Of a stretch of 64,000 nt of DNA, positions 2,800 to 60,482 are shown one piece after another. The translations under genes were made by a program, and so were the position numbers. Position 1 is the first letter of the stretch, and each line of letters opens with the position of its first letter. The stretch covers positions 3,203,001-3,267,000 of the forward strand of contig CM067312.1 of NCBI GenBank assembly GCA_034231615.1, given 5' to 3'. Under the pieces are notes generated by a model, which had not been told where the DNA came from, did no database searches, and worked only from the letters and a program-made list of their open reading frames with translations. The stretch is from Meghimatium bilineatum. Its lineage: Eukaryota; Mollusca; Gastropoda; Stylommatophora; Philomycidae.

Positions 2800-5700
2800 G
2801 TAAGTCTTCTTCATTTGTTCTCAAACTCCTGCAGATTAGCTGGACATAGTATCACGGTTTACAGCTTTTCTGTGATATTTGTGTTTTCAGCCTGAGACAT
2901 CCGACTTCAGCATGTCTTCTGGGTCATTTTGACTCTATGTTGGATGGAAAGTCAACTCCATCCTGTCCTTAATTGCTCTTATGATATGCATGAAAGGTAA
3001 GCAGTATTGATCATTTTTGTTCACGTTTCTGGCCATAGCAACACATGGATGAGGTAAGCTTGTGAATGTGACTTGAGTTGGTAGAGATAAAATCACCAGA
3101 TTCTGCCGAAGACGAATATGTCGAGCCATTGACGCAAAAAAATGATGCATTTCCATTCTCTGGACTACATCCTGCTGGAAATCTAGATGAACCATTGTCC
3201 TGTTACAACAGAGATCCAGCGGGAGTTTGAGAATGTTTGTTGCAGAAAAAGAATAAAAGCACCAGATTTTCAGAGGCAACACAACAGGCTGTAAAAATGA
3301 GGGCTATGGTAACCTGCGACAAATGTCTATCCCCAGGTGAACGATGCTTGATCGTATCCACTCTTGCCAATAAGCATAGGGTGGGAGTTTCAGCTTTTGT
3401 TCCAAGACCAAATGTGGTGCCTTGGTTGCATTAAGTCCTTGTTTGTTAAAGGCTCTTGATGCTTTCTATCCCCAGTTTTCTTGGTTTAATTTTGGCCTTA
3501 TGCCTGAATATTCTATTGTTATATGCTCTTATTGGTATTTGGTTTGGGCTCATTCTTATAAAGTGATCAAACCATTTTACTTGCTGTCTTTCAATATGTT
3601 CAATACATGATATCATACTAACTCTTTTCCTAATTTATTTTACCTACCGGTAGTTTAGTAACCATTGCAGCTTTTCTCAAACACTTCATGTTACATGTAA
3701 CAATTTTTCTCTGCTGCGAGGCTGATAAAGACCATGTTTGATGTTGGTATAAATATTGTAGATATTATCTTTTGATTTCCTTCGTGATGTTTGGGTAAAG
3801 GAGTAACGGTGAAAGTTGGTAGGTCACTGTGTTTGCTTTCTGACACCATGTTTCTAATTCTCTGTGTACTCTTCCATCTTTGGAAAAAATGCTGCCTAGA
3901 TATTTAAATTCTTTGGCTTGTTTAACTTTAGTGTTATCTATTGTTATAACCATTGGTGTTGCCAAGTTGCTAATTTTCATAACTTCCTGTTTTTGTGTGT
4001 TTTCATGTTGTACTTCTTACATGCTAATAGCAATAGATTGATGTGGTTTTGCAAATGTTCATCTTTGTATATTAGACTTTGTATATTAGACTTTGTATAT
4101 TAGACTTTGTTCGTCGGCAAAGTCTAATAAGTTTGATCTCTTTTTGCCAAGATGGTGGATTCATAGCAGTTAGATAGAGAAATGTGTAAACTCTTTTGTA
4201 GCAGCTAAAGGTTAAAAACATGTTTGTATTTTTTCAATTCAGGTTATCTCAGGCAGTCATGATTGCACAGTTCGGTTATGGGATCTTGCCATGGGCAGGA
4301 CAAGAGTTACACTTACCAACCACAAAAAGAGTGTGAGAGCACTAGCTCTGCATCCAACACAGTAGGTGTATTCACATTTTACTGACCAAATTCGATGGTC
4401 GTTGAATTTCTGTTATATATCTTTGGTGACCAACTTTGTTGCAAATTGTCATAACCATTACGTTTCATAAATAGGTAGCGAGTGTTACTAAAAATAGCTG
4501 GTCTGGTATTGTACTTTATTACAAAATGGCGGCATCCATAAAATAGTCTATGAGTATTAATCACGAAGACACAATGTTTAGAAGGTGTCATTTTTTTATA
4601 TATATATATATATATATAAAGCAAGGTAAATCCACGCCTAGCATTATAACAAGTAGAATTTCACCTTTGAAATAACTCTGGAGCTTTCAAATTCATTTAC
4701 AGAATGCAAACATTCATTATGACACATACAAAGTTTCAAAACTCTCTCACGTGAGGTTGATGCCGATGTCAAAACAATTTGCAGACGCCTTCGGTAATGT
4801 GAGATAAGTATGTTCTAGATTGCTGGTCAGTAAAGTGTCAACTTGACTTGCTTCCAGTTTTATATGGATTGTCTTCCCAGCTACTCAGTTCATTTTTCTG
4901 CTGCTCAACATCATCATCATATATATTTCCTGCTGGACAGTACATCTCCACAACTATATATTTCCTGCTGGACAGTACATCTCCACAACTATATATTTCC
5001 TGCTGGACAGTACATCTCCACAACTATATATTTCCTGCTGGACAGTACATCTCCACAGCTATATATTTCCTGCTGGACAGTACATCTCCACAGCTATATA
5101 TTTCCTGCTGGACAGTACATCTCCACAACTATATATTTCCTGCTGGACAGTACATCTCCACAACTATATATTTCCTGCTGGACAATACATCTCCACAACT
5201 ATATATTTCCTGCTGGACAGTACATCTCCACAGCTATATATTTCCTGCTGGACAGTACATCTCCACAACTATATATTTCCTGCTGGACAATACATCTCCA
5301 CAACTATATATTTCCTGCTGGACAGTACATCTCCACAACTATATATTTCCTGCTGGACAGTACATCTCCACAGCTATATATTTCCTGCTGGACAATACAT
5401 CTCCACAACTATATATTTCCTGCTGGACAATACATCTCCACAGCTATATATTTCCTGCTGGACAGTACATCTCCACAACTATGTTTCTGCTGTAGTCAGT
5501 CAATTCATTTTTTCCAAAGAAACACTCATTTGTGTACAATAATTCTTTTTCCTGGAGAAACACTTATCCACAACTTCTTTTTCTTCTTCATTCATTCTCA
5601 AACTCCTGCAGATTAGCAGGATGTAGTCTTGAGTAATATTCCTTCCAATTGTTTTCTCAAGTGAAAAAAATCTAAAGATGTCTGAATTGTGAATATTTCC

Positions 5701-18870: not shown

Positions 18871-19483
18871 ATAAAATACAAGTATTGAGGTTATTAGGAG
18901 GAAGGCAGTGAGTCGAAATGAGATATGGAACAATGTCAAGCAAATCTATAAGTGATGTTCGTTGCATGTGGTTGGAGAACAAGACTGAAAATTAATCAAT
19001 ATTCCAAAGAAAGGCTCTCCCGGTCACCATAGTGGCAACATAATGAGTCTGTCACTGAAGCCTCAGCACTGCCATGATGTGAAGCTGGAGAAATATTTTA
19101 TAAATAAGATATAGATATATGCTCACCGTATCTTGCATATACTTTTGGCTGTACATTGCTTGCTTCCCGTACAAGAAATGGAAATGTTGGGTTATTTTTC
19201 TTCAGTGCTACATAATTTTTCTCCAAGAACTCCCTGCACACAAAAAATTAAAATAAACCAGACATGAGATGATTTTTCTGTGAAGTTGCTTGCACACTGA
19301 AGTACTTACTACCAACTTATTTTATAACTAAACTCTACTACAATGATATTTGAATTATGACAGCTTACCATTTGGTATTTAATTTCACTGTGTAGACAAC
19401 CTGTTTAAAGTCACAGTGTATAATGTGGGCCTGAGTAAGGCCTGTCCAACTTCGACTTTATTTTACTGTTTTATATAGGCCTA
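18871..19483. other. Intergenic DNA, no gene seen
   Basis: No supported frame or repeat copy recognised. Confidence 0.4.
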
Positions 19484-25546: not shown

Positions 25547-27219
25547 TAGAAGCAGTCATTCTTCTTCTTTCGTTCACTTGAAACATGTCTATATCTGTAA
25601 TTCTGTCTCCTTAATAAACTCACTGTCTTTTGTAGTTCATACAGTGTCCCATAGAGCTTTGATTCCAGTGTTGTTTCCTCTGGCCAATATGTCTGCCTCA
25701 GCGTTTCATGCTCAGAACACTCTTGAAGTATATGTTTGGCACTCTGTGCTGCCTGTACACATGGCCGTGTTGCCAATCTTGAACTTTGTATACATGTGAC
25801 TGTGGAGTCGGTTGTGTCCTGTTCTGAGACGTAGAATTATAACTTGTTCTGGTCTGTTCATAATGTGATAGTCATCTTGTGTTGGTGTTTGAGGCTTTCT
25901 TATTGACTTGATCATCTGTTTTTTCTGATGATAGGTGATTGGTATATCTGGTTGGTCTTTGGCAGCACCTTCCTTAGCCAGTTGGTCTGCTTTTTCATTT
26001 CCTGGTATTCCACAGTGAGAGGGTATCCACTGCATGGTTACCCTATACTGGTAAGACAATTAGCTAAGTAATTTTTCAAGTCTGTTAGTTTTCCAGACTG
26101 GAGAGCTTGAAGCACTGACCTTGCATCTGTCAGGAATACCACAGGCTGTAGGTCAGAGTTGGAGTTCAGCAGTTTTTTAGCTGCCACACTAATTGCCTGG
26201 ATTTCTGCATCATAATTATTGCAGAATTTTCCTGTTGGTGTTCTGATTGTATCTCTAGGCTTGTGTAGATATTCTATATATATACACCTGCACCTCCATT
26301 CCTCATGGCGTTCTGTGCTGACCCATCTGTGTATACTCTGACCCATATATCTTGTGGATATTCCTCATCCAGGAAACTGAGGGTGACTGTCCTTCGCTGA
26401 ACACTGTTCTGTTCGTCCTCGCTTAGTATTCCTTTCACATGGGTCTGAATGTATATTGGCATTCCATGTCTTTCACTCCCCGGGGTTTGTTCTGGTACAG
26501 GCCTTAAGGGGCTGTCAACTTCAGGTAGGTCTGTAAGTTGTCTGCGGAGTCGTTTAGCTTGATGGATAAAGCTGCTTCTTTTCAGTCGTCCCATTGCTAG
26601 ATTTTGGAATCTTTCCTTCATTGGATGACTTGGCATACACTGAAACTTTTCTGCCTGAATTAGTACTTTTGTGTCTCTGCATTCGCCAAGTGTTTGCATT
26701 CTTCCCATTTTCTGCATCTCTGCTATGGGTGTTGATTTCATTGCTCCCAACATTATTCTAAGTGCCTGGTTTTGCACTTTATCTAGATCTTGTAATGTGG
26801 TGTTGGATGCAGGACACCAAGCAGATGAACCATATTCCAGGTGTGGTCTTATGCCTTGCTGGTAAACTTATATTCCCACTGGCTCCCCATGTGTTTCCAC
26901 TTAGTTTTCTCAGGATAGCTAACTTCCTCCTGGATTTTGTTGTTGCTTTGTTTATGTGCTGCTTCCATGTCAGTTTATCATCAAAAGTAACTCCGAGGTA
27001 TGTGGGTTGTTTGTCTTCTTTCAAGAGCTCTCCATCTATTTTGATATGACCGGCTTTTTTATTTGGTGAGAGGGTAAAGAGTGTAGTGCTGCACTTATCT
27101 GTGTTAATGCTGACACACCATATATTAGCCCATAAGCTTAGGGCATCAATAGCTCTTTGTATTTGTTTAGTGGCCACTGTCGCATGTTCTTCCGTGCACC
27201 AGATCACCAGGTCGTCAGC

Positions 27220-28147
27220 TTACATTGCCACTTTGATCCCATGTGGTAGTTCAGCAACTAGGTCATTGATGTAAACCAAGAAAAGTGTGGGTGACAGGAC
27301 TCCTCCCTGGGGGACTCCATGACGCAGTATAACTTTCTTGCTCTTGCGACCATCTAATTGTACCCTGGCTCTTCTATTATGCAGGTATGCTTTTACCCAT
27401 TTGTACATTCTTGAGCTAACCCTGCAATTTCGCAATTTCTTTAGGAGCCCTTCTTTCCAGACCTTATCAAATGCTTTTCTGAGGTCTATCCATGCTGCTA
27501 GTACCAGTTTCTTTTCTTGGAAGGCATCCTCAATCTCTTGGGAGAGGTAGGTTGCCTGATCTTCAGTAGAGTAGCACTGTCTGAAACCTGCTTGCTGTGA
27601 TACCAGAAGGTTTTCAGTTTCAAGGTACCACTGCATCCTAAGATTGATAATGCGTTCCATTGTTTTGCATAGACAGCTTGTGAGGCTGATGGGCCTGTAG
27701 TTGGAGACTGTGTTGCCATCTTTTCCTGATTTGAGGAGTGGTATCATTATTGCTTCTCTCCACGCCTGTGGTACATTACCCATGGACCAGCTTGTGTTAA
27801 AGATCTGCAGTAACTTTGCTCTTGCTGCAATTCCCAGGTTTCTAATCATTTCATTGGACACTCCATCAGCTACAGGGGACTTTTTCATTTTCAATTTGGA
27901 TATTGCATGCTCCAGTTCTCTCATTGTGATTGGTGCCTCCATGACTTCAGGTATAGGTTCGCCGTGTCCAATGTTTTGCTGGTTCTCTCGAACCTCCTGT
28001 TGTTTGTCTGGGCTGACTTTGACGTTATTGTCTTCTGCAAAGTAATCAGCTGCATGTTTACCTGTTAAAATGTTTCTATCTTTATAAAGTGTGATCCTGG
28101 TATTTCTCCCTGTACCTTCATCATTTAGTTGTTTTACAAGTTTCCAT
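27220..28147 (-). pseudogene. Reverse transcriptase part of the I-like LINE
   Basis: The longest uninterrupted piece (about 310 residues) covers RT blocks 0-4, up to a stop codon immediately before ADD. The minus strand carries tgaGCTGACGACCTG where YADD is expected. The Tyr to stop change makes a full polymerase impossible. Confidence 0.85.
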
Positions 28148-29358
28148 GGGGTGCGAAGGGAACGCATTGCTCTAGGCGGACCCAGGGTTAGCAGATAACC
28201 AAGATCCCAAATGTACCTCCACGTGGTGCACCCTGGAAACAGAAATAAAGCAGCTCAAGCTGATTCTGGCCAAATCATTTGGGGATCGTGTCCGAGAATG
28301 TGGAGGTAGCAGATAGAAAGAGATTTGACTGCACAAGAGACAGACAATATCTCCGACACCACCAGCATCACCACATATAGCGACACTGTCGACATACAGT
28401 GAAGCTAGTCAGTCCAGTCCGAACATTGGAGGGGCGGCCAATGTAAAATGCACGTAAAGGTAGATGCATGGCGAGACAATTAGATTTCATACCGAGTACA
28501 ATGAAAGGGCAGAACAGCGCTAGAGGGCAGCGTGAACTGCAAATAGAAAGTGAAAAGTCTCTAGGAAAGTTGAACTACAAGCTCCGTCAGCTCGAGACGA
28601 GCATCTAATTACCTGTGTTCCTTACAGACAGAGACCCAGACCCATCCATTGGCGGCTGGTAAAGCAAGAAGACCTAATCCAACTCTAATGTCGAGCCTTC
28701 CTAAACCGGAAATATGCTCGCGAAGAGAAAGGGTTCCGTACCCTATGGGCTCAGGCACAAAAGGGACAACGATTTAGCCCTGTCCCAACTCTACTGTCAG
28801 GTTTTCCTACACCGGAAATACACTTGAAGAGAGAAAGGGTTCAGTACCTGATGGGCTCAGGCGCTATTGGGACAAGGACGCTCAGCTCTAGAACGCCTTG
28901 CTCTCAAATGCGTGGTGTGAGACTCGGACAAGGGGTACACGATGTCTGTGAATGAAACCTCGGCTAAGAGGGCGAAAGAGCCAGGGTCTAACTCCTCTGT
29001 TGAGTTCTTCCCCTTAAGGAACCAGGCTCACGGATGAGAAATGGTTCAGTAGCCAATGGGCACAGGTACAGCACGTCCAATTACACGAGGCGAGTTTATA
29101 GACAGTGGAACACCTCGTGCGAGTCAGACGAGAGCAAAAATCGTCTGGGCGAAGAGTCGCCACTATGCGTGCCTGGAGACAGATATAGAGGCTGTCACAG
29201 GCTAAGGGTAGCCCACCCGAATTGTCAAGGCATGCCGAAATCGGATGTGCTAGGTCTACAAGGCGCATAACGGTGGCACAAAGTAATCACGCTCCCGGCG
29301 GAAATCGCACGGATATCCGTGATGGTTACAATGGAGCGAACGCAAAACAAACAAGCAA
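28148..29358 (+). mobile_element. Unclassified 1.2 kb insertion with 12 bp target duplication
   Basis: Flanked by ACAAGTTTCCAT at 28136-28147 and 29359-29370, and interrupting a continuous LINE reading frame (WKLV). It is about 50% GC against roughly 35-40% around it. The plus-strand right end is AAAACAAACAAGCAA, like a (CAAA)n tail, which suggests retroposition in plus sense. It holds two clear copies (near 28682 and 28785) and one weaker copy (near 28990) of a block with ACTCTAATGTCGAG, CCGGAAATA, GAGAAAGGGTTC and ATGGGCTCAGGC. A 78-codon frame (29034-29270) is open but unlike any protein I know. Confidence 0.75.
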
Positions 29359-38740: not shown

Positions 38741-41700
38741 TATATATATATATATATTGCCTAGATTTCTCTTAAATTTAGTAAATAAGCCTACATTTTC
38801 GAGTTATAATATGGTGAAAACTGGTTCAAGGTCGCGATAATCACTAGTTTAACGTTTTCATCAGAAATATTCTAAATTCCTTCTCAGTAGGGTCCCATGT
38901 GCTGACTTAGTCATCTGGGCTGACCCCACTGTTCATTGGTCACTTCTTTGCTTATATTATGTGTCGCTAGCCAATGGTTAGTTAAAAAAAAAGGGGTGCA
39001 GAGACGTTGAAGCGAGCACTTGTGCTCGCTTCGCTCGCCAGGACCAGGACTCATACTGGTTCAGACCTTGCTACGCCTCCCCGCGGAGCACCCTGGGCAA
39101 CAGAGAAATCTGGCTAAGGTAGCAAGGATCGGACGATCTCCAGCTGAGGTGGGAACCTGCTGTGGACTTGGAAACTTCCAAGAGAGAAACGACTCTTTCA
39201 TCTACAGTTCGTCCCGGGATTTCAAGCAAGCCTCAGCAAAACTTTCGTCAGCCTTTTCGACTTTTCGCCAAGGCTCAAGTACGTTTCGCCAGTCCCCAGG
39301 TCACCCCGACGTCGTGATATCGCCAGAAAAAGTCCTTTTTAGGACTAGGTGGAAAGCGACGTGACCAGGCATAGCGAGTGCCTGGTCGAATCCCCCAACT
39401 AACCAAACCTAACCAAAGGTTAGTTAAAATAAAACTTCTTATTTCGAGGTACACTTCTTTCAACTGCGGACGTTAGTTCAATTAAGTTATATCAGAGCTT
39501 TTAATTATCAAAAAATTGAGGTTGCGGTATTGGTAATACTGTCACCATGTGCTACGGAGACTATTAGCCAGCTAATTACAAGAAAACACAAGAAACGTCA
39601 AATAGCATCACCAAATAATGTCCATAAGTAACGTTAACATTGTTTTCGAAATTAAATGGAACACCTTATATGGAACAAAACAACAGCTCATAAACACATG
39701 CATATATCACACAATGGCATTGGGTCAAAGGTTCTGAACCCATGGACTGCAGAATCAGCAACCACGCACCAACCAACTAGCAATATACATGCAACATATT
39801 TACTGTTAACTAGGGTTGTAATGTCAAAATATATGTTTTTTTTACTTGTAAAATTTCAGGTAAAATAGGGTCAAAAACTTTCAATACGTTTTCAAAGTAA
39901 CCAACAATAGCATAGGGGCCTATAAACATAAATTATTAAAACATAAATTTCATTTCCGGTGACACAAATGACTAAATTTGTAAGCCATTTGTTCATGGCT
40001 AAATTCTGGCAACTCTGCCGCTTACCCCAAGGGTACATGTCATGATAACATCTTTGCACTTTTATAAATGAGATCATCATATAACTAATGTAAAATAGCT
40101 TGTGCGTATCTGTTTGTGGTTTTAGCCGACTAAAACCCCATATTTTCCTAGTATCAAGGCGATCACCAGCTTGTGATGAAACAACACTATTTAAAAAGAA
40201 ATTAAAACAACGTTCTGTATAAGCCACATTCACCAAATATTGTCATTGTATTACCGGTATACATTCTCCATTTAGTGTCAACAAGCCCATATATAGGGGC
40301 TGGGGTGGGGAGGATCACACCCATTCTTAGGTATTTAGAACATGACTTATGGTACTAAGGTGGGGGAACCCCCCCCCCCTTTTCCTTCAAACGCCAACGA
40401 CTATCTGCAAAAAGTAACCAAAATTAAAATGAAACAGGAAGTTATAGTGAAAGTGAACGAACGACGCTTTTATGGTTTTTGCCTTCTATATTTAAGTAAA
40501 ATATCCCCCCCCCCCAAATCCCCCCTTTCATCATCATCAAGTGCCGTCTCAGCAACGAAGGTTGGCTGCAACAGATCTCCAACATCCACTGTCTCTTGTC
40601 TTGGTGGTGCACTCTGCTAGACTGTAACCTGTCCATCCTGTGATCTTACTATCCCACTTGTATCTCTGTCTACCTCTTGCTCTCTTCCCCTTGACTTTAG
40701 TAGAGGGTAAAGGGTTTCCTTTACTGAAAACGTATCTACTACCTTGAGTGTGAGACCATCACCGCTTTGTGATACCCTCAGACAATTTTATGGCCCGCCA
40801 AAATTTTGCTCCTGCCCCCACCCCCAAAGTAATATACAGTTATTGCTAGTCCACTACTGGACAGTATGACTTAGGCTAAGAACTGCATTCTGTCCATATT
40901 GCTCGGTCATCTGTGTTATTCATCACCATCATACATGTGTGTGTACATCACATTCTTTCACGCCACATTCCAGAATGGCTGTTATCACTTTCACTTCCAT
41001 GGACTTGCAGTGTTATCTATTTGCGTGCCTTACTAAGCCTGCAGATAAAGGGGAGCAACTTCCATCCTCACCCAAGGTAGTAGATTCATTCTATAGGGGG
41101 GGGGAATGGGAGGTTACCTAGAAAGCAAGTACATTCTTGCATTTTCGTGGTTGAGATCTCCGTTTTGATGAAAAATGTGACCTTTTGTGAAAAAACGTTT
41201 GGGGATTGGGGGGGGGGGCTTTTGGCTCTCCTTATGATCAAGTTTCTAGTGCTAAAAGCCATCATCCCCCCCTTATCTATGGGCCTGCTCCCACCTCTTA
41301 GACTATTACAACATTGCTTCTAGTAAGGGATAAAAGTTTCATAATCCGGTAACCACCTTTAAATAGAAAATAGGTGGCTAGAGTAACACATGGCAAATAT
41401 CAAAATAAACAGAAATAGATATTAGTGTTACCAAAATAAGTCGATAAAACAACCTAACAACGAGCCACAGTACCAGACGACGTTTCGACTAAAAGCCTTC
41501 ATCAGGACAAACAAAAGACCGCAGTCAACAAATCTTAAGTAGAGGCAATGTGGTAGTGATTGGAAGGAAAAAAGAGGGAAGAAGTATAGTAGCTAGTGGG
41601 AGATGGAGGAAGCAAAGATGAGGCTTTTTATGTGCTCTCTTCCCTCCTTACTTACCATTTTTCGTCTTCCCCTCACACCTTTTTCCTCCCTGTCATGTCA

Positions 41701-44700
41701 TCTTTGCTTCCTCTATCTCCCACTCGCTACTGTACTTCCTTCCTCTTTTTTCCTTCTACCACATCACTACCACATTGCCTCTATTTAAGATTTGATGACT
41801 TTGGTATTTTTTTTGTCTTGATGAAAGCTTTTTAGTCGAAGCGTCGTCTGTCACCGTGTATCGTTGTCAGGTTGTTTTATCCACTTCTTTTGGTAACACT
41901 GATACCTATTTTTATTCATTTGTATTACTTTTAGTACTTGTGTGACGTATGGCTGAGCGGTTAGAGTGTGGTATCACACCCATGAGGTCCAGAGTTCGAT
42001 CTCCGGGAAGGGCTGGCTTTTTTTTCTGTCGGAGTGTAAATTAAAAAATTCACCCTGAACATGACGTGGCGACAGCAAAGGTCATGCGACCTTTATGGCA
42101 CAGGCCATTCGAATACTCCACTCTCTGTAACTCCCTAACGGGAAAAATACAGCATTTCAGTATTTATAAAAAAACACAAAAAAACTGTTAGTACTTAAAG
42201 GAACGTAGCTAAATGTGGGTAACCTGCCCTCCCCCTTCCCAACGTTTTCCTGAAGAAAGGTGAATTAAAAATCTAATGAAGATAATAATAAATGTTCGTA
42301 AAATTGGCTATTAATTTTTTAGGTAAAATTCCCACTTACTGCCCTGTATCATACCCATAAGTAGATTGTATTCATAATACAATGAGTAGTCTGTTGTAGG
42401 TCCAACTTCGTATTTTTATCGCCAGATCATGCGAATTTTATTGTACAGTTGATGTTAGAATAAAAATCATAACTTCCGTGTGTTGACAGGGCCCGATAGG
42501 GGAGTAAAAGAGTAGCAATACTGTTTACCTTCGATGCATGTCGCAAGACGGAACTAATGATGTTTTGGAATTGAGTTGGCTGTCTCATCCTATTTAACGT
42601 CAGTAACCCAAAAGTCATGCTGAAGTTGGATATGTCAAGCCGAAATGCGCAGATATCGTAGTATGGCTGTAAACCATGACACATCGCATCCCGTTCTCCG
42701 ATTAAGCCCTGCTAATCTGCAGGAGTTTGAGAACGAACACAAAAGAAGAATATACGTCTCTATAGCAGAAAGTTAGTCTACTTTTCTTTGTCTGCGTTTG
42801 TTCTCAAACTCCTGCATATTGGCAAGATGTAGTCCTGAAAATGGAATATATTTCAGCCTAACTCATCCGACTACAACATTGCTTCTATATCACGTTGACG
42901 CTTTATGGGATGGGACCGCCAACTGACAAATACCTTTCTTAGTCTTCTCGTATTATATGCATGACAGGCAACATAAATTATTCTTCATTCCCCGTTCAGT
43001 CACCAGTGAGACAAAGGACGAGTTCGTCTATCTATCTATACACTATATCCCTTGTTTGCCTTCCGTGTCAGGGGTACAAAAGTTCTCTGGAGATGGCCTT
43101 TCTGTGTGCTGTTTGTAAGCTTGTTCCTGTGGCATCTTTGATTTCTGTGATCTATATTTTACATGGTCTGCCTCTGGCGTTACAGTGGTTATATTCGTTT
43201 ATATCGTCTATTATATATGCTATATTCGTCTAGAGTTCGTCTATATCCTTACATTATACTTCACTAGCTGGGGACGAGTTCGTCTTTATCCCGACACATG
43301 TTTGAGCGAATCGCTGTAGCTATGAGTAAATGTTGAATTATGAATGAATCAAGGCACGACATCCCTTCAGTATGTGTGTGCGTGCACCTGTTTCCCCTAT
43401 CTCTCTACACATGGATGATGGAGCAAGCCATGTTTTGTGTAGGTGATTGTTCAGCTTGCTGCGGTATGGACAAGCAGTTACCGTCTTCGCTAGCCAAGTT
43501 TGAACCTGTGTTTCCCCGTCACATATCCCCACTTGTCAGCATCTGCAGGTTCTCAGTTGACATTTGGCGTTGTTCACACGACTATCTCAGACAGTGGAGT
43601 GCATATATATACCATGTGCTTCTCTCTGTGGACATTTGACTATCACATTTATGGCCTGAAGTTTGTCTTGTCGTGTCTGTCTATAGACAATCGAATCTTG
43701 TGTACTCATTTATCTAATCTTAACTTATGCAATCTTAAGTTCAATAAATCAATCAAGTGCCATGCCGAGTGACGTAGGCGATCATGTTTCTCCACAACTC
43801 TACGTCTCTTTCATAAATTCAATTGGTGACATTTTCTTATGCCAGAGTGACAACCCATCTAGCAAATTCTCTCTTTGACTTCCTCAGTCTCTTCTCGCTT
43901 TAACCTTTCAGGTTCTTAATAAATATTCAGTTTTGCTCGTCTCATCATTCTTTAATCATTTAATGACATCAAATATACAAATGGTTAAATGGCAGTCCTA
44001 CGTTGAACAGGATGGACGTTTCGACCAAAAGGTCTTTATCAAGAAATACAGAATGAAACAACAAATGCAGAATGAAACAACACAATCAAACGTAGACTAC
44101 ATGTACCAGTAATGTGATACATATACAAGTCTGAAAAACAAATAGAGAAGCAGTGATTCTACCCATTCAAAGTAGGACCATGACCTGGGTATTAAAAACC
44201 CCCAACATGATCATGTACTCTTGAATATAAAAAAAATCTTTGCATAGAGCTACCCATTGGACGAGGAAAAAACTTCAAACATATGTCGGGGAGCACATAG
44301 GCCTATTGTTCTATTTTCTGACCGAATCAGTGTTGAGACTTGGAACCCTGGAGTCTGTGCTCAACGTAGACTGGGAGGTAGTCCATGTCTTTGAGAACAT
44401 AACAACCAAAGTTTAACGCGACTGTCGTCGTTACCCAACACGGCTCATACAGAGAAAATATTGTGTTCAGTATCCAAGAGCACACGGGAAAGGATATATT
44501 TCTTACACAAGATTTGTTCGTTGACTGCAATGCTCATCGTTCGTAATAGGCGCAATCTACCTACTTCTGTGGGTAATAAACGCAATCTACCTACTTCTGT
44601 GGGTAATAAACGCAATCTACCTACTTCTGTGGGTAATAAACGCAATCTGCCTACTTCTGTGGGTAATAAACGCAATCTACCTACTTATGTGGGTAATAAA

Positions 44701-57900: not shown

Positions 57901-60482
57901 CTCTAGGTCTCCCTCTTCTTCTTACTCCAGGTGGCACCCAATATAGTGATTGCTGGGGAATTCTTAGGCTGTTCATTCTGAGAACATGGCCGATGTAAGT
58001 CCAACGCCTTTGTCTAATGAAGGAAGATATATAGGTTTGTTTGCTTTCCTCTCTTATAGTAGTGTTAGATTTAAAGTCACTCCACTTAACGTTCAGAATG
58101 GTACGTAGGCATTTGTTTTCAAAGGAGTCGAGTCTTTTATCTGTGGCTTTTGTGGCTTTCCAACTTTCGCACCCATATGATAGAATAGGGATGATGTTGG
58201 AGTTAAATAACTTGAGTTTTGTGGTGTTTCTTAGTGTGTTTGACGTCCATATGTTGCGTAGTTTATTGAAAGCACCCGCTGCAAGGGCAATACGGTGTAA
58301 AATTTCTTTTTATGAGTCTCCATCCAATGCTAGATTGGTGCCTAAATATGTAAAATTGTTGACTTTTAATAATGGAACATTTTGAATTTCTATGTTGTCG
58401 TTGGATCTCGTAAAATCTAGTATATGAGTTTTTGATGTGTTGATTTTCAACCCTATCTGATTTGAGTAGTGTTGGAGATTGTCAAACTTAGATTGAGCAT
58501 CTGTGTGGTTTGCGCTCAAAAGGGCCAGGTCATCTGCGTAGTCAAGATCTTCGAGAACGGTATTATTAATCCATGAGAACAGATGCTAGACTAAATAAGT
58601 ATCTACACTATGTTTCTCCTCTAACATATACAACAGTCTGCCACATTTTTACAATTCCAAACATATATATTAATGTCAACTATGTCTTCTTTCACAGAGC
58701 AAAGTCTGTCTTGTGTTCTTCATTGCATGCCTCAGAACAATAACTTCATCAAGTCATTTTTATTTTATACTTGCAGGTGACAGAAATTCTGAACACATTA
58801 CATGTAGCATTCACATCAGCTTGTAACAAGCGGAGCGACACAAGTGCTAGTTCTACTGCTGTCAGCACACAGAGCCAGGTGTGCACCTCTTGTCCACTGC
58901 ATCAGTTCCACAGAATCTGTCAAGAAATTCATTGTGAGTATTTTATACTGGGACTATAAAATATGGTGCTACATTATGTTTGAATTTGTGTAGGTCCTAA
59001 AGAAAGCGTTTTAGTCGAAACGTCATCTGCCTTTGTGTAATTTCACTGTTTTACATCATTTTTACTATTCATAGCACTTGAATTTACTAATTTCTATTCG
59101 TACTCACATTTTTTCTTCTTTACTGCAGCCCCTTATATTTCTAGCTTGTTGGTTTATCCCTGACACTGGCGATCTATTTCTGAATATATGTAGATCTCAT
59201 CAGGAGTACATGTTATTTGACTTGATTGAATCTGAATTGATTTATTGATTTAACTTGATATAAACATGGTTTTTAATAAACTAACACAACTTAGATTGTT
59301 TAATTCATTAATGCTACCTGTATTGACACATAATACCTGTATATTGATATACTACCTGTATTGACATACTACCTGTATATTGATATACTACCTGTATTGA
59401 CATACTACCTGTATATTGATATACCACCTGTTTTGACATACTACCTGTATTGACATACAGATGTGAAAGCTGGAAATCCACACAAGAAATATACAGTAAA
59501 TTAATCACTTTTGAAAAAAGTGCCTTTGAAGAATATTGAACATAAAATGGTCCGATTTTAAAACAAGTGATTAACTGAGGGAAGAGACAAGAACCAGAAT
59601 TTATGTATAATGAGAAGATGCTGGCATTACATCAGCCATATACTGAGAATAGATGAAGACAGTCTTCCTAAGGAAGACTCAAGGACACTCAAGGAAAGAT
59701 TTTCTACAGAAATGTTTTAGTTTGAAAGTTGTATTCAATTCTGTGTTTTATATCTAGATCTTGGTTGTAATGTCCACCCAACATAGCATATAGTTTCTAT
59801 TAAACCACCATAGAAGCCAACAAAAATTTGTGATATCATTGCCTTCAACATAGAACACTGAGTGTTTTGTGTGTGGAGATGGTTGCCTTCAACATAGAAC
59901 ACTGAGTGTTTTGTGTGTGGAGATGGTTGCCTTCAACATAGAACACTGAGTGTTTTGTGTGTGGAGATGGTTGCCTTCAACATAGAACACTGAGGGTTGT
60001 GTGTGGAGATGGTTGCCTACAACATAGAACACTGAGTGTTTTGCGTGTGTGTGTGTGTGGAGATGGTTGCCTTCAACATAGAACACTGAGTGTTTTGCGT
60101 GTGTGTGGAGGTGTTTGCCTTCAACATAGAACCTGCCATGCATCTTGTAAGAGGTGCCTAAGGAGGGTTTTGTGATTGTTGCAGTCAGTCACATCCCATA
60201 AAGGGTGAATGTGACCTGGAAGCCGTACAAAAGTTGGATGTGTTAGGCTGAAAGATGCAGATAATGCAGCTTAGCTGTAAACCATGACAGAATGCAATCT
60301 TTTCTCCAGACTACATCCTCCTAATCTGTAGGAGTTTGAGAACGACCAAATGAAAAAGAAGATGATATTTTGTTGTTGTCCTTATTTCAGCTTTGTCACC
60401 TCAAGCTGCTTATGAACTGCTGGTCAAGAAAGTCAATTTTTTGCCAGATAAAGAATTTCACGAGCTGAACCAACTTATGCAG
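31665..60482 (+). CDS. TBC1D1/TBC1D4-type RabGAP, N-terminal half, seven exons, 3' partial
   Basis: Homologue of TBC1D1/TBC1D4 (AS160), which couples Akt/AMPK signalling to Rab GTP hydrolysis on transport vesicles. Exons are 31665-32042, 49336-49476, 50937-51083, 52754-53419, 56132-56224, 58777-58933 and 60391-60482. They total 1674 nt, exactly 558 codons, with GT/AG borders and compatible phases. The first PTB domain is at about residues 20-145 (FSAIFLGSMSVNRL, LQPWVMAEI, CHVYLAE, QLFQAIRDASK). A second PTB starts at VKYLGRAKVGARRL (about 174), is split by a Ser-rich linker, and resumes at MVLQIGQQDISLISLDKK, then FGIVARD, VTEILNTLHVAFTSA and CTSCPLHQFHRICQEI. The same order and the SQG junction occur in vertebrate TBC1D1/4. 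The Rab-GAP TBC domain must lie beyond the window. Met at 31665 is chosen because the PTB begins about 20 residues later, as in the family. A non-coding first exon upstream is possible. Confidence 0.9.
32115..32392. repeat. Tandem repeat, 42 bp, about 6.5 copies
   Basis: Units follow ACATTTCAGTCTTGTGAACA CATGTTTACAACACCTCAAC AA with drift. The array starts about 70 bp after the TBC1D exon 1 splice donor. Both strands are open over several units, an artefact of the 14-codon unit. Confidence 0.9.
32415..32938 (-). repeat. LINE 3' fragment
   Basis: Reverse-strand sequence codes, with breaks, for the GRPREKILDNLALWHER type end found in animal LINEs. In plus sense GACAATCTAGCATTGTGGCA and AGAACATCGGCACCAGAAAT are read on the minus strand. 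Relative: 51295-51620. Confidence 0.5.
32939..33162. repeat. Poly(C) tract and poly(G) tract, about 190 bp apart
   Basis: Roughly 19 C residues at 32939-32957 and about 16 G residues at 33145-33160. On one strand they could pair, or each could form a quadruplex or i-motif. Between them is AT-rich sequence with no repeat recognised. Confidence 0.8.
33163..34089. other. Intronic DNA, no exon supported
   Basis: An 84-codon frame at 33392-33646 has no recognisable motif. At 33955-34010, minus strand, TCTTGAAAAAGGTTCAATTT then GAGCCGATACGT resembles the motif group at 41480. Confidence 0.4.
34090..34400 (+). repeat. LINE fragment, family LB, degenerate
   Basis: Matches 24000-24390 at GGCAGGTTTTAAGAACATAG, TCACAACAGGCAAGACTGAA and CACCTACGCCAACCAGAATG GCAC. 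Full of indels. Confidence 0.65.
34401..34764. other. Intronic DNA, low-complexity CA/TA-rich
   Basis: ACATA/CACA-rich sequence that gives misleading open frames on both strands. No feature recognised. Confidence 0.4.
34765..35560 (-). repeat. LINE fragment, family LC
   Basis: Minus translation from 35455: MKEFTYLVSITSSNGTNIKE, IRHRCNIAYRILGPM, then LDYIRRQQIKWFSHASRL. The 3' end (34765-35030) is the non-coding tail also seen at 7962-8200 and 43020-43200. Multiple frameshifts. Confidence 0.7.
35590..35700 (-). repeat. Hammerhead-like motif repeat (degenerate)
   Basis: The minus strand reads TCTTGATAAAGGCCCTTTGG then TAGAAACATC: the TTGATAAAG - short stem - GAAAC - TC layout shared with 41480, 44030 and 58995. 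Confidence 0.4.
36393..36502. repeat. 28 bp tandem repeat, left part
   Basis: Four degenerate units of ACACACTACAAAATATACAG TAGTACTAT. The array continues at 36694. Confidence 0.8.
36604..36692 (-). repeat. tRNA-derived SINE head inside the 28 bp array
   Basis: The minus strand gives GTGGCGGAGTGGTACAGGGC (A-box-like) and TACTGAGTTTGATCCCCGCC (B-box-like) at tRNA spacing, with complementary ends GTGGCGG and CCGCCAC. It replaces about 190 bp of array, so it looks inserted there. Not a standard intact tRNA gene. Confidence 0.55.
36694..36917. repeat. 28 bp tandem repeat, right part
   Basis: About seven units of ACACACTGCTAAAATACAGT AGTACAAT. The last five or six are almost identical. Confidence 0.93.
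37195..37392 (+). repeat. LINE 3' fragment
   Basis: AAAATGGGTACCGGTTGGCA, AAAGGTATGACTATGGGTCT CAACAACATGC and GGAGAGCTCTGGTTTCTGCA also occur, diverged, at 60960-61225. This is the extreme 3' coding end of an LD-like LINE. Confidence 0.65.
37393..37520. repeat. Duplicated GATA-rich segment, about 60 bp
   Basis: AGATATATTAGATTATATTA GCTAACTAGGTAGG occurs twice, followed by GATAGATGTATAGCTAAC. Confidence 0.75.
37652..37948. repeat. MITE-like element with inverted ends
   Basis: The left end GGGGTTGTCCATAAATAAAG TCAACA faces the right end, whose complement reads TAGGTGCTGTTCATAAGTCA ACAA. Inner parts also pair (TTTTTGACACTCCCC near the left; GTGTGACAGTTG complement near the right). About 295 bp and non-coding. 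Superfamily not assigned. Confidence 0.5.
37949..38659. other. Intronic DNA, nothing recognised
   Basis: No exon, RNA or repeat copy supported. Confidence 0.4.
38660..38757. repeat. (TA)n microsatellite
   Basis: About 98 bp of nearly pure TA with a few slips (TAATATTA). Confidence 0.97.
38988..39417 (+). mobile_element. Unclassified 430 bp GC-rich insert with target duplication
   Basis: Flanked by GGTTAGTTAAAA at 38976-38987 and 39418-39429. A hairpin near the left end has 11 bp arms around TT (GAAGCGAGCAC...GTGCTCGCTTC, 39009-39032). A second near the right end has 9 bp arms (GACCAGGCA...TGCCTGGTC, 39363-39387). The right end AACCAAACCTAACCAAA could be a retroposon tail. A 114-codon frame (39020-39364) is open but its product is unrecognised. 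The GC content stands out from the AT-rich intron. Confidence 0.7.
39430..40528. other. Intronic DNA, nothing recognised
   Basis: Only short homopolymer C runs (40371, 40505). No exon seen. Confidence 0.4.
40529..40700 (-). repeat. LINE 3' end, family LA
   Basis: Minus translation: MDRLQSSRVHHQDKRQWMLE, then ICCSQPSLLRRHLMMM, ending in a (GAT)n tail. It matches 16560-16699. Confidence 0.8.
41394..41922. mobile_element. Foldback element with a hammerhead-like motif in each arm
   Basis: The left arm 41394-41621 is the reverse complement of the right arm 41698-41922 (about 85% by eye), with a 76 bp loop. Arm landmarks are GGTAACACT, CAGGTTGTTTTAT, TAGTCGAAACGTCGTCTG, CACATTGCCTCTA and GGAAGCAAAGATGA. 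On the minus strand the left arm has TGTCCTGATGAAGGCTTTTA then GTCGAAACGTCGTCTGG: CTGATGA, a GGCT/AGTC stem, GAAA and CGTC. An extra A precedes the stem. The right arm copy is decayed (CTTGATGA, GAAGC). No ORF is supported. Confidence 0.8.
41943..42180 (+). repeat. tRNA-derived SINE, family T
   Basis: The head has TGGCTGAGCGGTTAGAG (A box) and GAGTTCGATCTCC (B box) at tRNA spacing. A body follows with CACCCTGAACATGACGTGGC, GGCACAGGCCATTCGA and CTCTGTAACTCCCTAACGGG, ending in an A-rich tail. A second copy on the minus strand is at 47085-47312. Because both share the non-tRNA body, this is a SINE rather than a Ser/Leu tRNA gene. Confidence 0.88.
42590..42750 (-). repeat. SINE-like repeat, family S1
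   Basis: CATGCTGAAGTTGGATATGT, GTAAACCATGACACATCGCA and CTGCAGGAGTTTGAGAACGA identify a minus copy. It is head-to-head with the next copy. Confidence 0.75.
42795..42975 (+). repeat. SINE-like repeat, family S1
   Basis: TGTTCTCAAACTCCTGCATA, GGCAAGATGTAGTCCTGAAA, GGGATGGGACCGCCAACTGA and the end ATGCATGACAGGCAAC. Confidence 0.75.
43020..43200 (-). repeat. LINE 3' tail (LC-like)
   Basis: Similar to 7962-8200, with a (CTAT)n run at the start and GGAGATGGCCTTTCTGTGTG. Confidence 0.55.
43201..43754. other. Intronic DNA, nothing recognised
   Basis: No supported exon. The two overlapping open frames on opposite strands show no family features. Confidence 0.4.
43755..43925 (-). repeat. LINE 3' end, family LB
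   Basis: CAAGTGCCATGCCGAGTGAC GTAGGCGATCATG is the complement of the LB end at 24350-24385 (CATGACCGCCTACGCCACCC GGCATGGCACC). Confidence 0.65.
43950..44070 (-). repeat. Hammerhead-like motif repeat
   Basis: The minus strand reads TTCTTGATAAAGACCTTTTG then GTCGAAACGTCCATCC. A perfect 4 bp GACC/GGTC stem with a TTTT loop, then GAAA and CGTC, is preserved. The CTGATGA box has become TTGATAA. Confidence 0.5.
44551..44736. repeat. Minisatellite, 6 x 30 bp
   Basis: Six units of CGCAATCTACCTACTTCTGT GGGTAATAAA with three point variants. Flanking it are diverged direct repeats (44410-44470 and 44860-44915) sharing ACACGGCTCATAC and AGAAAATA. Confidence 0.95.
44940..45404. other. Intronic DNA, nothing recognised
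   Basis: No exon or repeat copy supported. Confidence 0.35.
45405..45830 (+). repeat. LINE 3' fragment, degenerate
   Basis: Broken translation with FEMRCYRRILRTRY and ERLITEGRIDDNREIWRPRR-like pieces, followed by GATGATGATT. LB/LA type. Confidence 0.5.
45888..45937. repeat. (TC)n(TA)n microsatellite
   Basis: A run of TC dinucleotides passes directly into TA dinucleotides. Confidence 0.95.
45948..46122. repeat. hAT-like MITE
   Basis: The left end CAGTGCAGGATTTACCT faces the complement of the right end (GTAGTGCCGGATTTAGACTT). About 175 bp, including a poly(C) run. The outer flanks both contain CATATATG/CATATG, as a short duplication would give. Confidence 0.5.
46350..46560. repeat. Duplicated segments plus S1 3' end
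   Basis: AATAGATGGACATGGTGGTG TTCATGTCTAACTTATGTAG recurs near 46415 and 46485 and again at 47870-47960. At 46503-46560 the S1 end (CACCTCTTGAACATGCATGG) follows. Confidence 0.55.
46640..46725 (-). repeat. tRNA-like SINE head
   Basis: The minus strand has GGAATAGTGGTTAAGCCATT (A-box-like) and CACAGGTCTGATCCTGGGCC (B-box-like). No intact cloverleaf; tail not identified. Confidence 0.4.
47085..47312 (-). repeat. tRNA-derived SINE, family T
   Basis: Minus strand: CATGGTCGAGAGGTTAGAGC, CTAGAGTTCGATCTACGG, then the shared body CACCCTGTACATGACTTGGC and CTGCAACTCCTTAATGGGG. Second copy of 41943-42180. Confidence 0.88.
47434..48596. mobile_element. Foldback element with about 350 bp inverted arms
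   Basis: The left arm 47434-47780 is the complement of the right arm 48151-48596 at over 90% by eye. Shared landmarks are GAGGTATTTTAAAGAGCAAA, GGGGGCTTACCTCCTCTCCG, TGTCATCCTGCATTATTCTG, GCATATGGCCTTTTTTGGAC and TAACTGAGGTGACACC. The right arm is about 100 bp longer because a 50 bp block (GGGACAAAACATGTACCCAT...) is present about three times at 48165-48320. Loop 47781-48150, no ORF. Fragments of the same family are at 48975-49160 and 53905-54060. Confidence 0.85.
48680..48960 (+). repeat. Interspersed repeat, family W
   Basis: AACTTCTAGTTGAGGGTGCA, GGAGGTGACTAAGGAAAGTT, CAACTTGTCACCTGTGAAAA and ATAATCCCCAGGAATGATGA. Confidence 0.75.
48975..49160. repeat. Fragment of the 47434 foldback family
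   Basis: CTGGAATGTCTCCCTTAGAT, CCTTGAGACAACCTTATATG and GTGAGGGTGTCCCCTCAATA align with the right arm at 48150-48360. Confidence 0.5.
49336..49476 (+). CDS. TBC1D1/4-like exon 2
   Basis: 47 codons, phase 0. The acceptor is ttctctctcacag and the donor GAG|gttagt. It encodes the last helix of PTB1 (IPQLFQAIRDASKDV) and a Ser/Asp-rich linker. It corresponds to the VPEIISSIRQAGKIA region of vertebrate TBC1D1. Confidence 0.88.
49927..50187 (-). repeat. LINE fragment, family LA, first of two in a row
   Basis: Minus translation: SMLMYGSQTWAINKQLEDRI, DAFEMWVYRRIVRTSWKEKK, TNKEVLKNT. It is 5'-truncated and abuts the next copy. Confidence 0.8.
50192..50900 (-). repeat. LINE fragment, family LA
   Basis: Minus translation: MRIIKCYIYSILMYGSEKWT, TSWKENKTNKEVLNTLNMKK, IKYFGHIKRHDTLLKTLLEG, then the (GAT)n tail at 50192. 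About 85-90% like 16250-16699. Ends 36 bp before TBC1D exon 3. Confidence 0.85.
50937..51083 (+). CDS. TBC1D1/4-like exon 3
   Basis: 49 codons, phase 0. The acceptor is ataatttcag and the donor CAG|gtgtga. It encodes the opening strand and helix of the second PTB domain (VKYLGRAKVGARRL, DYIDSVAERLIV) and a charged tail (EEVDQERKRQEEQ). Confidence 0.88.
51170..51290. repeat. Tandem duplication, 2 x 51 bp
   Basis: GTGAGAGTTTGCTACAGATT ACAAATATGGAGAGATGGAC ACAGAT is repeated with one change. Confidence 0.85.
51295..51620 (-). repeat. LINE 3' fragment
   Basis: Reverse-strand GAAGAATAGTGGAGGATGAT ACCAAATC and GGACCTTGTGGGGACCATTA resemble the KTWWRMIPNQLGPCGDHY-type end of LINE products. Low complexity follows. 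Confidence 0.4.
51795..51934. repeat. Minisatellite, 7 x 20 bp
   Basis: Seven units of AGGAAYGGTAGATGTGTAAG with a C/T alternation at one site. Confidence 0.95.
52013..52100. repeat. hAT-type repeat end
   Basis: CAGTGGTCCTCATCCTGTTT matches the CAGTGGTTCTCAACC-type end of hAT MITEs. A possible far end around 52500 (AGTAGTTCTCAATG) is weak. The region between holds the TTAGGG-containing repeats. Confidence 0.35.
52110..52372. repeat. Four diverged repeats of 60-75 bp with TTAGGG-like spacers
   Basis: Each unit has CATCACCAGGGCATTTTAAG GTTTATTAGTCTATTCTTTG TTGTTA. Two are followed by telomere-like GGGTTTAGTGTTAGGTTTAG GG or GGGTTAGGGTTTGG. Confidence 0.85.
52754..53419 (+). CDS. TBC1D1/4-like exon 4 (Ser-rich linker with two basophilic kinase motifs)
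   Basis: 222 codons, phase 0. The acceptor is caatatacag and the donor CAG|gttggt. It holds a long low-complexity linker rich in Ser, Asp and Glu, then re-enters the PTB fold (FSGIMVLQIGQQDISLIS). Two RxRxxS motifs are seen: RRRHGS (Ser 233 counted from Met 31665) and RRRHSS (Ser 365). In vertebrates the same inter-PTB region carries Akt/AMPK/14-3-3 sites. Confidence 0.9.
53905..54060. repeat. Fragment of the 47434 foldback family
   Basis: GATGATGAAATAATTCCTTT AGCAGTG, CAAAAGCATGGATCCTCAGT and CTCAAAGACCTGGTTGTTCT align with the left arm at 47575-47735. Confidence 0.5.
54051..54366. repeat. Minisatellite, about 13 x 25 bp
   Basis: Units GGTGGTTTATGAATACATGT TTTAG with few changes (one short unit, one GGG variant, CATAT for CATGT). 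Confidence 0.95.
54651..54882. repeat. Tandem repeat, about 60 bp, four copies
   Basis: CACAGTTATGATCTCTTTCA CAGTTGACAGATTGTCAGTA TATTCAG alternates with a 2 bp shorter unit (GGTTCTTTCAC). Confidence 0.92.
54885..54985 (-). repeat. Interspersed repeat, family W, fragment
   Basis: Minus sense of GGACTTCTAGTTCAGAGTTA, ACCACTGTTTTCTTTCCAGG and GAAGGTAACTAAGAAAAG. Confidence 0.6.
55070..56131. other. Intronic DNA, nothing recognised
   Basis: A poly(G) run at 55073-55084, a short CTTCCCTTTCTCTTAAT duplication near 55290, and no supported exon until 56132. Confidence 0.4.
56132..56224 (+). CDS. TBC1D1/4-like exon 5
   Basis: 31 codons, phase 0. The acceptor is atattttgcag and the donor GTG|gtaagc. 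It encodes GSHKKDIFGIVARD and YCYILRCLSEAV, matching the HFGFICRES and FQC-EALV part of vertebrate PTB2. Confidence 0.88.
56417..56720. repeat. Degenerate 17-18 bp repeats rich in TGACTCA, block 1
   Basis: Built on ACTGACTCACCATAACC. I count six TGACTCA and one TGAGTCA, the AP-1/bZIP palindrome, in about 300 bp. Confidence 0.85.
56721..57059. repeat. Sequence between the two TGACTCA blocks, with hammerhead-like relic
   Basis: At 56945-57040, CTTCTTGATAAAGATCTCTT then GTTTTGTAAACTAACTATAT matches 13925-14010. Confidence 0.45.
57060..57360. repeat. Degenerate repeats rich in TGACTCA, block 2
   Basis: Units such as CCACTGACTCATCCCAAC. Five further TGACTCA sites. Likely the same array as block 1, split by 340 bp. 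Confidence 0.85.
57590..57749 (-). repeat. SINE-like repeat, family S2, hit by a LINE
   Basis: TCTCTATTCTCTAGACTACA TCCTTTTGGATG and GGATCATTTTCCTGCTACAA G. Its end TGAGAACAGATG is duplicated around the following LINE. Confidence 0.65.
57750..58573 (-). mobile_element. LINE insertion, family LD, 5'-truncated, with target duplication
   Basis: Flanked by TGAGAACAGATG at 57738-57749 and 58574-58585. On the minus strand it opens in the RT palm (LDYADDLALLSANHTDAQSK), then GLKINTSKTHILDF and NNFTYLGTNLALDGDS. It ends with the GRPRETLR...QRQKWKAMVSS block and an (AACAT)n tail at 57750. Single frameshifts are present. Confidence 0.9.
58777..58933 (+). CDS. TBC1D1/4-like exon 6
   Basis: 157 nt, ending after the first base of a Ser codon. 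The acceptor is atacttgcag and the donor ATT|gtgagt. It encodes the closing PTB helix (TEILNTLHVAFTSACNK) and the Cys pair CTSCPLHQFHRICQEI, equivalent to CEGCPLQSLHKLCERI in TBC1D1. Confidence 0.92.
58985..59045 (+). repeat. Hammerhead-like motif repeat (degenerate)
   Basis: GTCCTAAAGAAAGCGTTTTA then GTCGAAACGTCATCTGCC. The GAAACGTC part is intact and the CTGATGA box is changed to CTAAAGA. Confidence 0.45.
59325..59460. repeat. Tandem repeat, 36 bp, about 3.5 copies
   Basis: CTACCTGTATATTGATATAC TACCTGTATTGACATA repeated with small changes. Confidence 0.9.
59453..59700 (+). repeat. LINE fragment, LD-like, degenerate
   Basis: YRCESWKSTQEIYSKLITFE, then LHQPYTENR-like pieces, as in 18180-18360. 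Confidence 0.55.
59839..60132. repeat. Minisatellite, about 6.5 x 44 bp
   Basis: TTGCCTTCAACATAGAACAC TGAGTGTTTTGTGTGTGGAG ATGG, with a (GT)n slip in the later units. It ends directly at the S1 element. Confidence 0.95.
60125..60362 (-). repeat. SINE-like repeat, family S1, near full length
   Basis: GAACCTGCCATGCATCTTGT AAGAGG, TCACATCCCATAAAGGGTGA, GTTGGATGTGTTAGGCTGAA, GTAAACCATGACAGAATGCA and TCTGTAGGAGTTTGAGAACG. It ends 28 bp before TBC1D exon 7. Confidence 0.8.
60391..60482 (+). CDS. TBC1D1/4-like exon 7 (last one seen)
   Basis: 92 nt completing 31 codons with the split Ser. The acceptor is cttatttcag and the donor CAG|gtagat. It encodes LSPQAAYELLVKKV and DKEFHELNQLMQ, parallel to the LQKHLTTLTNQEQATIFEEVQ segment. 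No further exon could be recognised up to the window end. Confidence 0.82.

Follow-up and report, generated by a model that had tools for sequence, protein, structure and literature searches.

The 64,000-nucleotide stretch of the Meghimatium bilineatum genome analysed in this study, hereafter the window (contig CM067312.1, positions 3,203,001 to 3,267,000), harbours a palindrome at window positions ~41326-41923. This foldback most likely represents one old and decayed insertion of a Penelope-like element (PLE), consisting of two 5'-truncated copies of the pseudo-long terminal repeat (pseudo-LTR) joined head-to-head.

Structure of the palindrome

The palindrome is real. Three pairs of inverted segments were found, namely 41403-41499 with 41825-41921 (84% identity), 41491-41584 with 41739-41832 (80%), and 41563-41621 with 41698-41756 (92%). 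The inverted arms described by a first-pass annotation, made from the letters of the window, were thereby confirmed. The foldback placed there at 41394..41922 is also present, but it is longer than proposed.

The left arm (41326..41621, minus strand) is a 5'-truncated pseudo-LTR copy, corresponding to positions 193-489 of the family majority sequence with 89.6% identity, and has the 3' end termed site B. The right arm (41624..41923, plus strand), also 5'-truncated, corresponds to family positions 118 to ~412 with 88.7% identity, and has the 3' end termed zone A. The 3' ends of both arms point outward and the truncated 5' ends face each other at the head-to-head junction (41622..41623), where 2 bp lie between the arm ends 41621 and 41624. 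Family positions 118-192 are private to the A arm and absent from the B arm, and positions 413-489 are private to the B arm and absent from the A arm. A putative target-site duplication flanks the pair, with the left copy ATTGCTTCTAGTA at 41313..41325 and the right copy ATTACTTTTAGTA at 41924..41936, identical at 11 of 13 bases.

Rfam matches to microRNAs within the palindrome were dismissed, as they fall far under the gathering scores and occur on the two strands of the palindrome alike. Directly beside the element, a stretch resembles by eye the head of a tRNA-derived short interspersed nuclear element (~41945-42015, plus strand). ARAGORN reported no tRNA in the window, including this head.

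An intact relative of the family

We found an intact relative of the family, locus L046, in a tandem array on contig C1. It possesses an open reading frame (ORF) of 921 amino acids matching RVT_1 (PF00078, E 6e-4, 20.0 bits against a curated cut-off of 29.6) and GIY-YIG (PF01541, E 1.7e-4, 22.3 bits against 22.6). Both matches are found in L046 and not in the window pair. The protein had no match in PDB or NCBIfam. L046 also contains an exact 300-bp direct repeat and two copies of the hammerhead-like motif described below, in each case 5,387 bp apart, corresponding to pseudo-LTRs in tandem. The pseudo-LTR of L046 aligns to the window family, and its body sequence adjoins seven of the twelve family loci that were read over a longer distance. 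The order of gene and motif in L046 is that described for PLEs (PMC11167929). On these sequence grounds the palindrome family is assigned to the PLEs, and the link to the minimal hammerheads of PLEs, already suggested by the first-pass annotation, holds for the family in that the intact PLE carries the motif in its pseudo-LTR.

The array to which L046 belongs (L094, L046, L095; G000:C1:6972600-6990470) is the largest foldback and spans ~17.9 kb, with an inverted copy at the left. Four direct motif copies and the inverted one lie within an exact 15-bp repeat, the last bases of which are possibly derived from the element; the ends and one unit were read, and the middle was deduced from the spacing of the motifs. 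The array may be a single insertion from multimeric or circular RNA, or an insertion later enlarged by recombination. Other traces of PLE proteins comprise a weak match to the GIY-YIG end in the window (18957-19082, minus strand; 44% identity over 43 amino acids, E 7e-4) and two short pieces from a more distant lineage of PLEs (L045:4710-5282, minus strand), with 39-46% identity to the protein of L046.

Foldbacks and single copies in the genome

The search of the genome (1.61 Gb, 32 contigs) with the DNA of the element resulted in 94 match rows (from 40 scored of 3,886 candidates), which represent 23 distinct loci of the 30 extracted. Seven of the 23 loci contain a foldback within 1.5 kb, and two more were detected after reading ~10 kb. 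For three longer copies, the alignment extends over a total of 1.3-1.8 kb. No long ORF was found by translation in the upstream parts of L031, L033, and L034. A miniature inverted-repeat or foldback transposon was dropped as a candidate, since 14 of the 23 loci show just one truncated unit, the 3' end of which is fixed.

Fourteen foldbacks were compared, namely those of the window, L003, L010, L011, L012, L014, L021, L036, L037, L088, and L089, and the paired loci L090/L091, L092/L093, and L094/L095. This set omits L087, of which the left end was unread, the pair C1:163365/171030, and additional distant matches (73-75%) in L024; L096/L097, with inward 3' ends, were counted as separate insertions and also excluded. 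In all fourteen foldbacks the 3' ends are directed outward. Two alternative 3' ends, ~75 nt apart, occur in the family, zone A (...TTTTTGTTCATTTTGA) and site B (...TTTATCCCTT), and 13 of the 14 foldbacks have one arm of each type. L026, which ends at position 400, was assigned to neither. Target-site duplications of 13-16 bp with a score of at least 10 surround nine of the 14 pairs, compared with none of 132 mismatched flank pairs; eight of these nine belong to the first set of twelve and one to two further pairs (L036, with 15 exact bases). Direct joining of the arms was seen in the window and L021. The arms of L036 are unequal, with ~2.3 kb for the A arm and 131 bp for the B arm, yet the latter reaches site B. 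For A-ended copies that looked single, a B-ended partner was predicted farther off and was found for two of five (L036 and L037).

The regularity of these pairs bears on whether two independent PLE insertions of opposite orientation could have become neighbours by accident. The family is abundant enough for such encounters, as indicated by the match rows above, and among the 100 listed motif sites (see below) the 13 neighbour pairs closer than 10 kb include two tail-to-tail. Seven of these pairs are, however, head-to-head and four are on the same strand, and the constant head-to-head orientation of the foldbacks, their A and B ends, their direct joins, and the single duplication around the whole pair in nine of 14 would not be expected from accidental neighbours, which we regard as very improbable.

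Proposed origin of the foldback

In the proposed mechanism, the PLE protein would cut both strands of the target a few bases apart, and each freed 3' end would prime reverse transcription of the PLE RNA at the pseudo-LTR. Priming would take place in RNA zone A on one strand and at site B, ~75 nt downstream, on the other. Both cDNAs would stop early and their 5' ends would be joined, giving an inverted head-to-head pair with its 3' ends facing out, surrounded by a single target-site duplication. The hammerhead-like motif of the pseudo-LTR would be carried along in each arm. That priming occurred twice, separately, is inferred rather than observed, as is any ribozyme activity in the past. For a purified PLE protein from a lizard, cleavage and extension of both strands have been reported, and its use of two adjacent start sites on the RNA explains the optional 30-40 bp tail of the lizard PLE (PMC11167929).

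Alternatively, one cDNA or antisense RNA could snap back and prime itself, in which case the palindrome would be made before insertion. Such self-priming is the model put forward for Penelope elements of rotifers, based on palindromes where the copies meet head-to-head (PMC3846280), and the direct meeting of the arms in the window and L021 would agree with it. However, the private sequence in each window arm (118-192 and 413-489), together with the unequal arms of L036, indicates that simple self-priming of one cDNA is insufficient. Private sequence cannot arise if one arm is simply a copy of the other, although an added template switch could produce it. Snap-back is therefore considered unlikely, whereas two cDNAs, separately primed, truncated, and joined 5'-to-5', would explain the private arm sequence.

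Several observations weigh against a decayed PLE insertion formed in this way. The duplication in the window is at the expected place, yet it is imperfect, with a score of 7 that was equalled in 13 of 132 mismatched controls, and those of L003, L010, L014, and L037 score 5-7. The identity between the window arms (85%) is not above that of arms from different loci and is uninformative as a tie between them. The left arm of L011 stops ~38 nt short of zone A, and the A arm of L088, still counted as A, is 16-20 nt short. Both Pfam scores of L046 fall just under the curated cut-offs. No partner was seen for 14 of the 23 distinct loci; in particular, the A-ended L008, L025, and L030 have none within ~9.3 kb upstream, and the B-ended L007, L016, L024, and L027 none in ~9 kb or more upstream. 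Such solitary copies possibly reflect a one-sided insertion, a lost partner, or a partner too short for the search. Finally, the lizard study describes a start site without strand difference (PMC11167929), and the A/B split observed here would therefore be a refinement.

The hammerhead-like motif

In the left arm the motif is located at 41479..41505 (minus strand; CTGATGA, A, GGCT-TTT-AGTC, GAAA, CGTC), where CTGATGA, GAAA, and the GTC triplet are exact, as the first-pass annotation had stated. The same layout had been claimed for each arm, which is correct for the left one. In the right arm (41818..41845, plus strand; TTGATGA, A, AGCT-TTTT-AGTC, GAAG, CGTC) the motif is decayed, with changes in the core base C3, the final A of GAAA, and the first pair of stem II. 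The core letters of the hammerhead (CUGANGA, GAAA, and the GUC cleavage triplet) are therefore present in the left arm and in the family majority sequence, but not in the right arm.

Genome-wide, the motif pattern YTGATRAARRNYNN{1,4}RRYCGAAACGTC has 2,169 + 2,231 = 4,400 exact matches in 1.61 Gb, and the same pattern read backwards has none (0 + 0). The motif is thus not due to chance, and copies retaining CTGATGA together with GAAA are widespread.

Pairing was counted in 100 listed sites among the 4,400 matches. These instances were selected by the pattern and represent few lineages. Standard pairs were found at positions 1-4 of stem II in 96, 99, 85, and 94 sites, respectively, and position 4 alternates between U-A (61) and C-G (28); the pattern requires a purine or pyrimidine at most paired places, so that some of this pairing follows from the pattern itself. 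Stem II forms with 4 bp and is preceded by one extra A. Stem I is poor, with pairing in 48 instances exceeding that of shuffled partners at position 1 only. Both caveats had been raised for the window copy and are correct for the family in the instances seen. Insertions of 1-2 bases beside the CUGAnGA block are found in known hammerhead alignments (PMC10085705). Stem III is reduced to ACGU, loopless and unable to close within one molecule, and would be possible only between two molecules.

Rfam hammerhead models at E values up to 10 had no match in window 41200-42160 or in 20 family loci, and these models likewise had none in L034 1900-2480, where the motif is decayed, in the intact PLE (L046 300-700), or in the 16 of 40 short motif loci tried, all searched with no PLE hammerhead as positive control. 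This model search had been suggested as a check on the first-pass annotation, and it scored the motif as nothing.

In active hammerheads, position 3 is paired with position 8. In the listed sites these positions are C-G in 54, U-A in 36, U-G in seven, and C-A in three. Two groups dominate, C3-G8 and U3-A8, and the switch between them may therefore be a single event. In a PLE hammerhead, rescue by C3G/G8C was reported, consistent with 3-8 pairing (PMC11167929). No PLE protein match and no Pfam match was detected upstream of three U3-A8 motifs of identical letters (L098, L099, and L100), and the reading of these three loci upstream thus revealed no ORF-bearing element of the U3-A8 type. A tandem satellite accompanies the U3-A8 motif in each of the three loci, and from their similarity of ~95% over 2.6-3.1 kb they look like one duplicated stretch.

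The motif of the family might instead be no more than an RNA hairpin, such as a site for protein binding, and this is a serious contender to which we give slightly less than an even chance. In its best fold, the family majority sequence forms a single extended hairpin of -7.8 kcal/mol, compared with +0.3 for the hammerhead-like fold. Base 1.1 is compatible with pairing to U4 in 43 of 48 instances and with stem I in 38. Among 28 U3-A8 instances, 27 have an A as base 1.2, which could there pair with U3. The 3-8 switch would therefore also fit a hairpin if its closing helix shifts register. Against the hairpin, the exact core letters of the hammerhead occur where other PLEs bear hammerheads, a protein-assisted PLE hammerhead has been reported (PMC11167929), and the best fold of the U3-A8 locus L050 differs from the extended hairpin. 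Furthermore, the energy models omit the tertiary contacts of the hammerhead, and the pairing counts that favour the hairpin come from pattern-chosen sites of few lineages. The motif appears to be a degenerate relative of the hammerhead, and we call it hammerhead-like, its activity being unproven.

Regarding the foldback itself, the two motifs are on opposite strands, and thus no single transcript holds both as sense hammerheads. The palindrome is consequently not a ribozyme dimer, and its presentation as an unusual ribozyme device did not hold. That its two motifs form an active device and cleave, perhaps as a dimer, is extremely improbable, despite the intact core letters of the left arm, the thousands of motif copies in the genome, and the switch of the 3-8 core pair from C-G to U-A. 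Besides the opposite strands, the decayed core of the right arm, the weak stem I, and the lack of Rfam hammerhead matches argue against it, as do the energies of the hammerhead-like fold in the two arms (+1.9 and +7.3 kcal/mol), compared with those of the best folds (-9.0 and -9.5).

A wider proposal would combine insertion on two strands primed at differing RNA sites, A and B, with the foldback as the primary product of integration and the tail as a mark of the strand start, and would take U3-A8 as a natural compensatory switch of the core. This combination is tentative, and we lean against it. The interest of the family lies in the regularity with which A and B ends are combined and in the group with U3-A8; both can be counted in the genome. 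Motif copies by the thousand, one intact copy in tandem, and numerous foldbacks whose ends and duplications can be read are available, so that the way in which PLEs integrate, which is poorly known, can be tested through counts of end types, arm lengths, and junctions. A natural test between a hammerhead fold under selection and a mere hairpin is offered by the groups with C3-G8 and with U3-A8.

Two further motif copies were observed in the window, at 44015-44042 (minus strand) and 58997-59024 (plus strand), in unrelated flanks. One of them is of the U3-A8 type with a 4-bp stem II and the other is decayed.

Comparison with known systems

The inverted placement of the two copies had been called unusual in the first-pass annotation. 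On the contrary, an inverted head-to-head pseudo-LTR within a target-site duplication, with a tail on one arm, is described as the typical structure of Penelope (PMC3846280). Similar to the canonical GIY-YIG PLEs, Pen of Adineta vaga (PMC3846280) and PAc of Anolis (PMC11167929), the family has an ORF with reverse transcriptase and GIY-YIG, pseudo-LTRs, and tandem units. It also shares with them the head-to-head inverted pseudo-LTR in a short target-site duplication, the 3' tail on one arm, and a hammerhead-like motif within the pseudo-LTR. The motif of L046 is located ~0.4 kb before the ORF, whereas that of PAc overlaps the ORF start, and the family combines one A arm with one B arm in 13 of 14 foldbacks, whereas the start site of PAc shows no strand difference (PMC11167929). 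The tail is ~75 nt long in the family, compared with 30-40 in the canonical elements.

Minimal type I hammerheads of PLEs were reportedly described by Cervera and De la Pena in 2014 and by Lunse et al. in 2017. They occur in PLEs and are dispersed by thousands in animal genomes, as stated in reviews (PMC7761336, PMC6155905). Like these hammerheads, as outlined in reviews, the family lacks a usable stem III, has a core of CTGANGA and GAAAC, and is dispersed in thousands of copies. It would differ from the hammerheads so outlined in that its stem I is unsupported past ~3 positions, an extra A precedes stem II in the instances seen, and an abundant group has U3-A8 in place of C3-G8.

With the metazoan retrozymes (PMC7229834) the family shares dispersed non-coding repeats with the letters of type I hammerheads. 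Those retrozymes are tandem repeats of ~150-450 bp with canonical hammerheads, whereas the tandem unit of the family is coding and has 5,387 bp. No short tandem repeats with a canonical hammerhead were found in the family, the short copies of which are truncated pieces of a longer coding element. Architecture and motif are both of known kinds, and the finding in the window is an ordinary decayed PLE insertion.

Other features of the window

Long open frames, resembling by eye a non-LTR reverse transcriptase, are located at 26274-28254 (minus strand). A stretch coding for WD40 repeats is present at ~4180-4410 (plus strand) and is probably an exon of a host gene.

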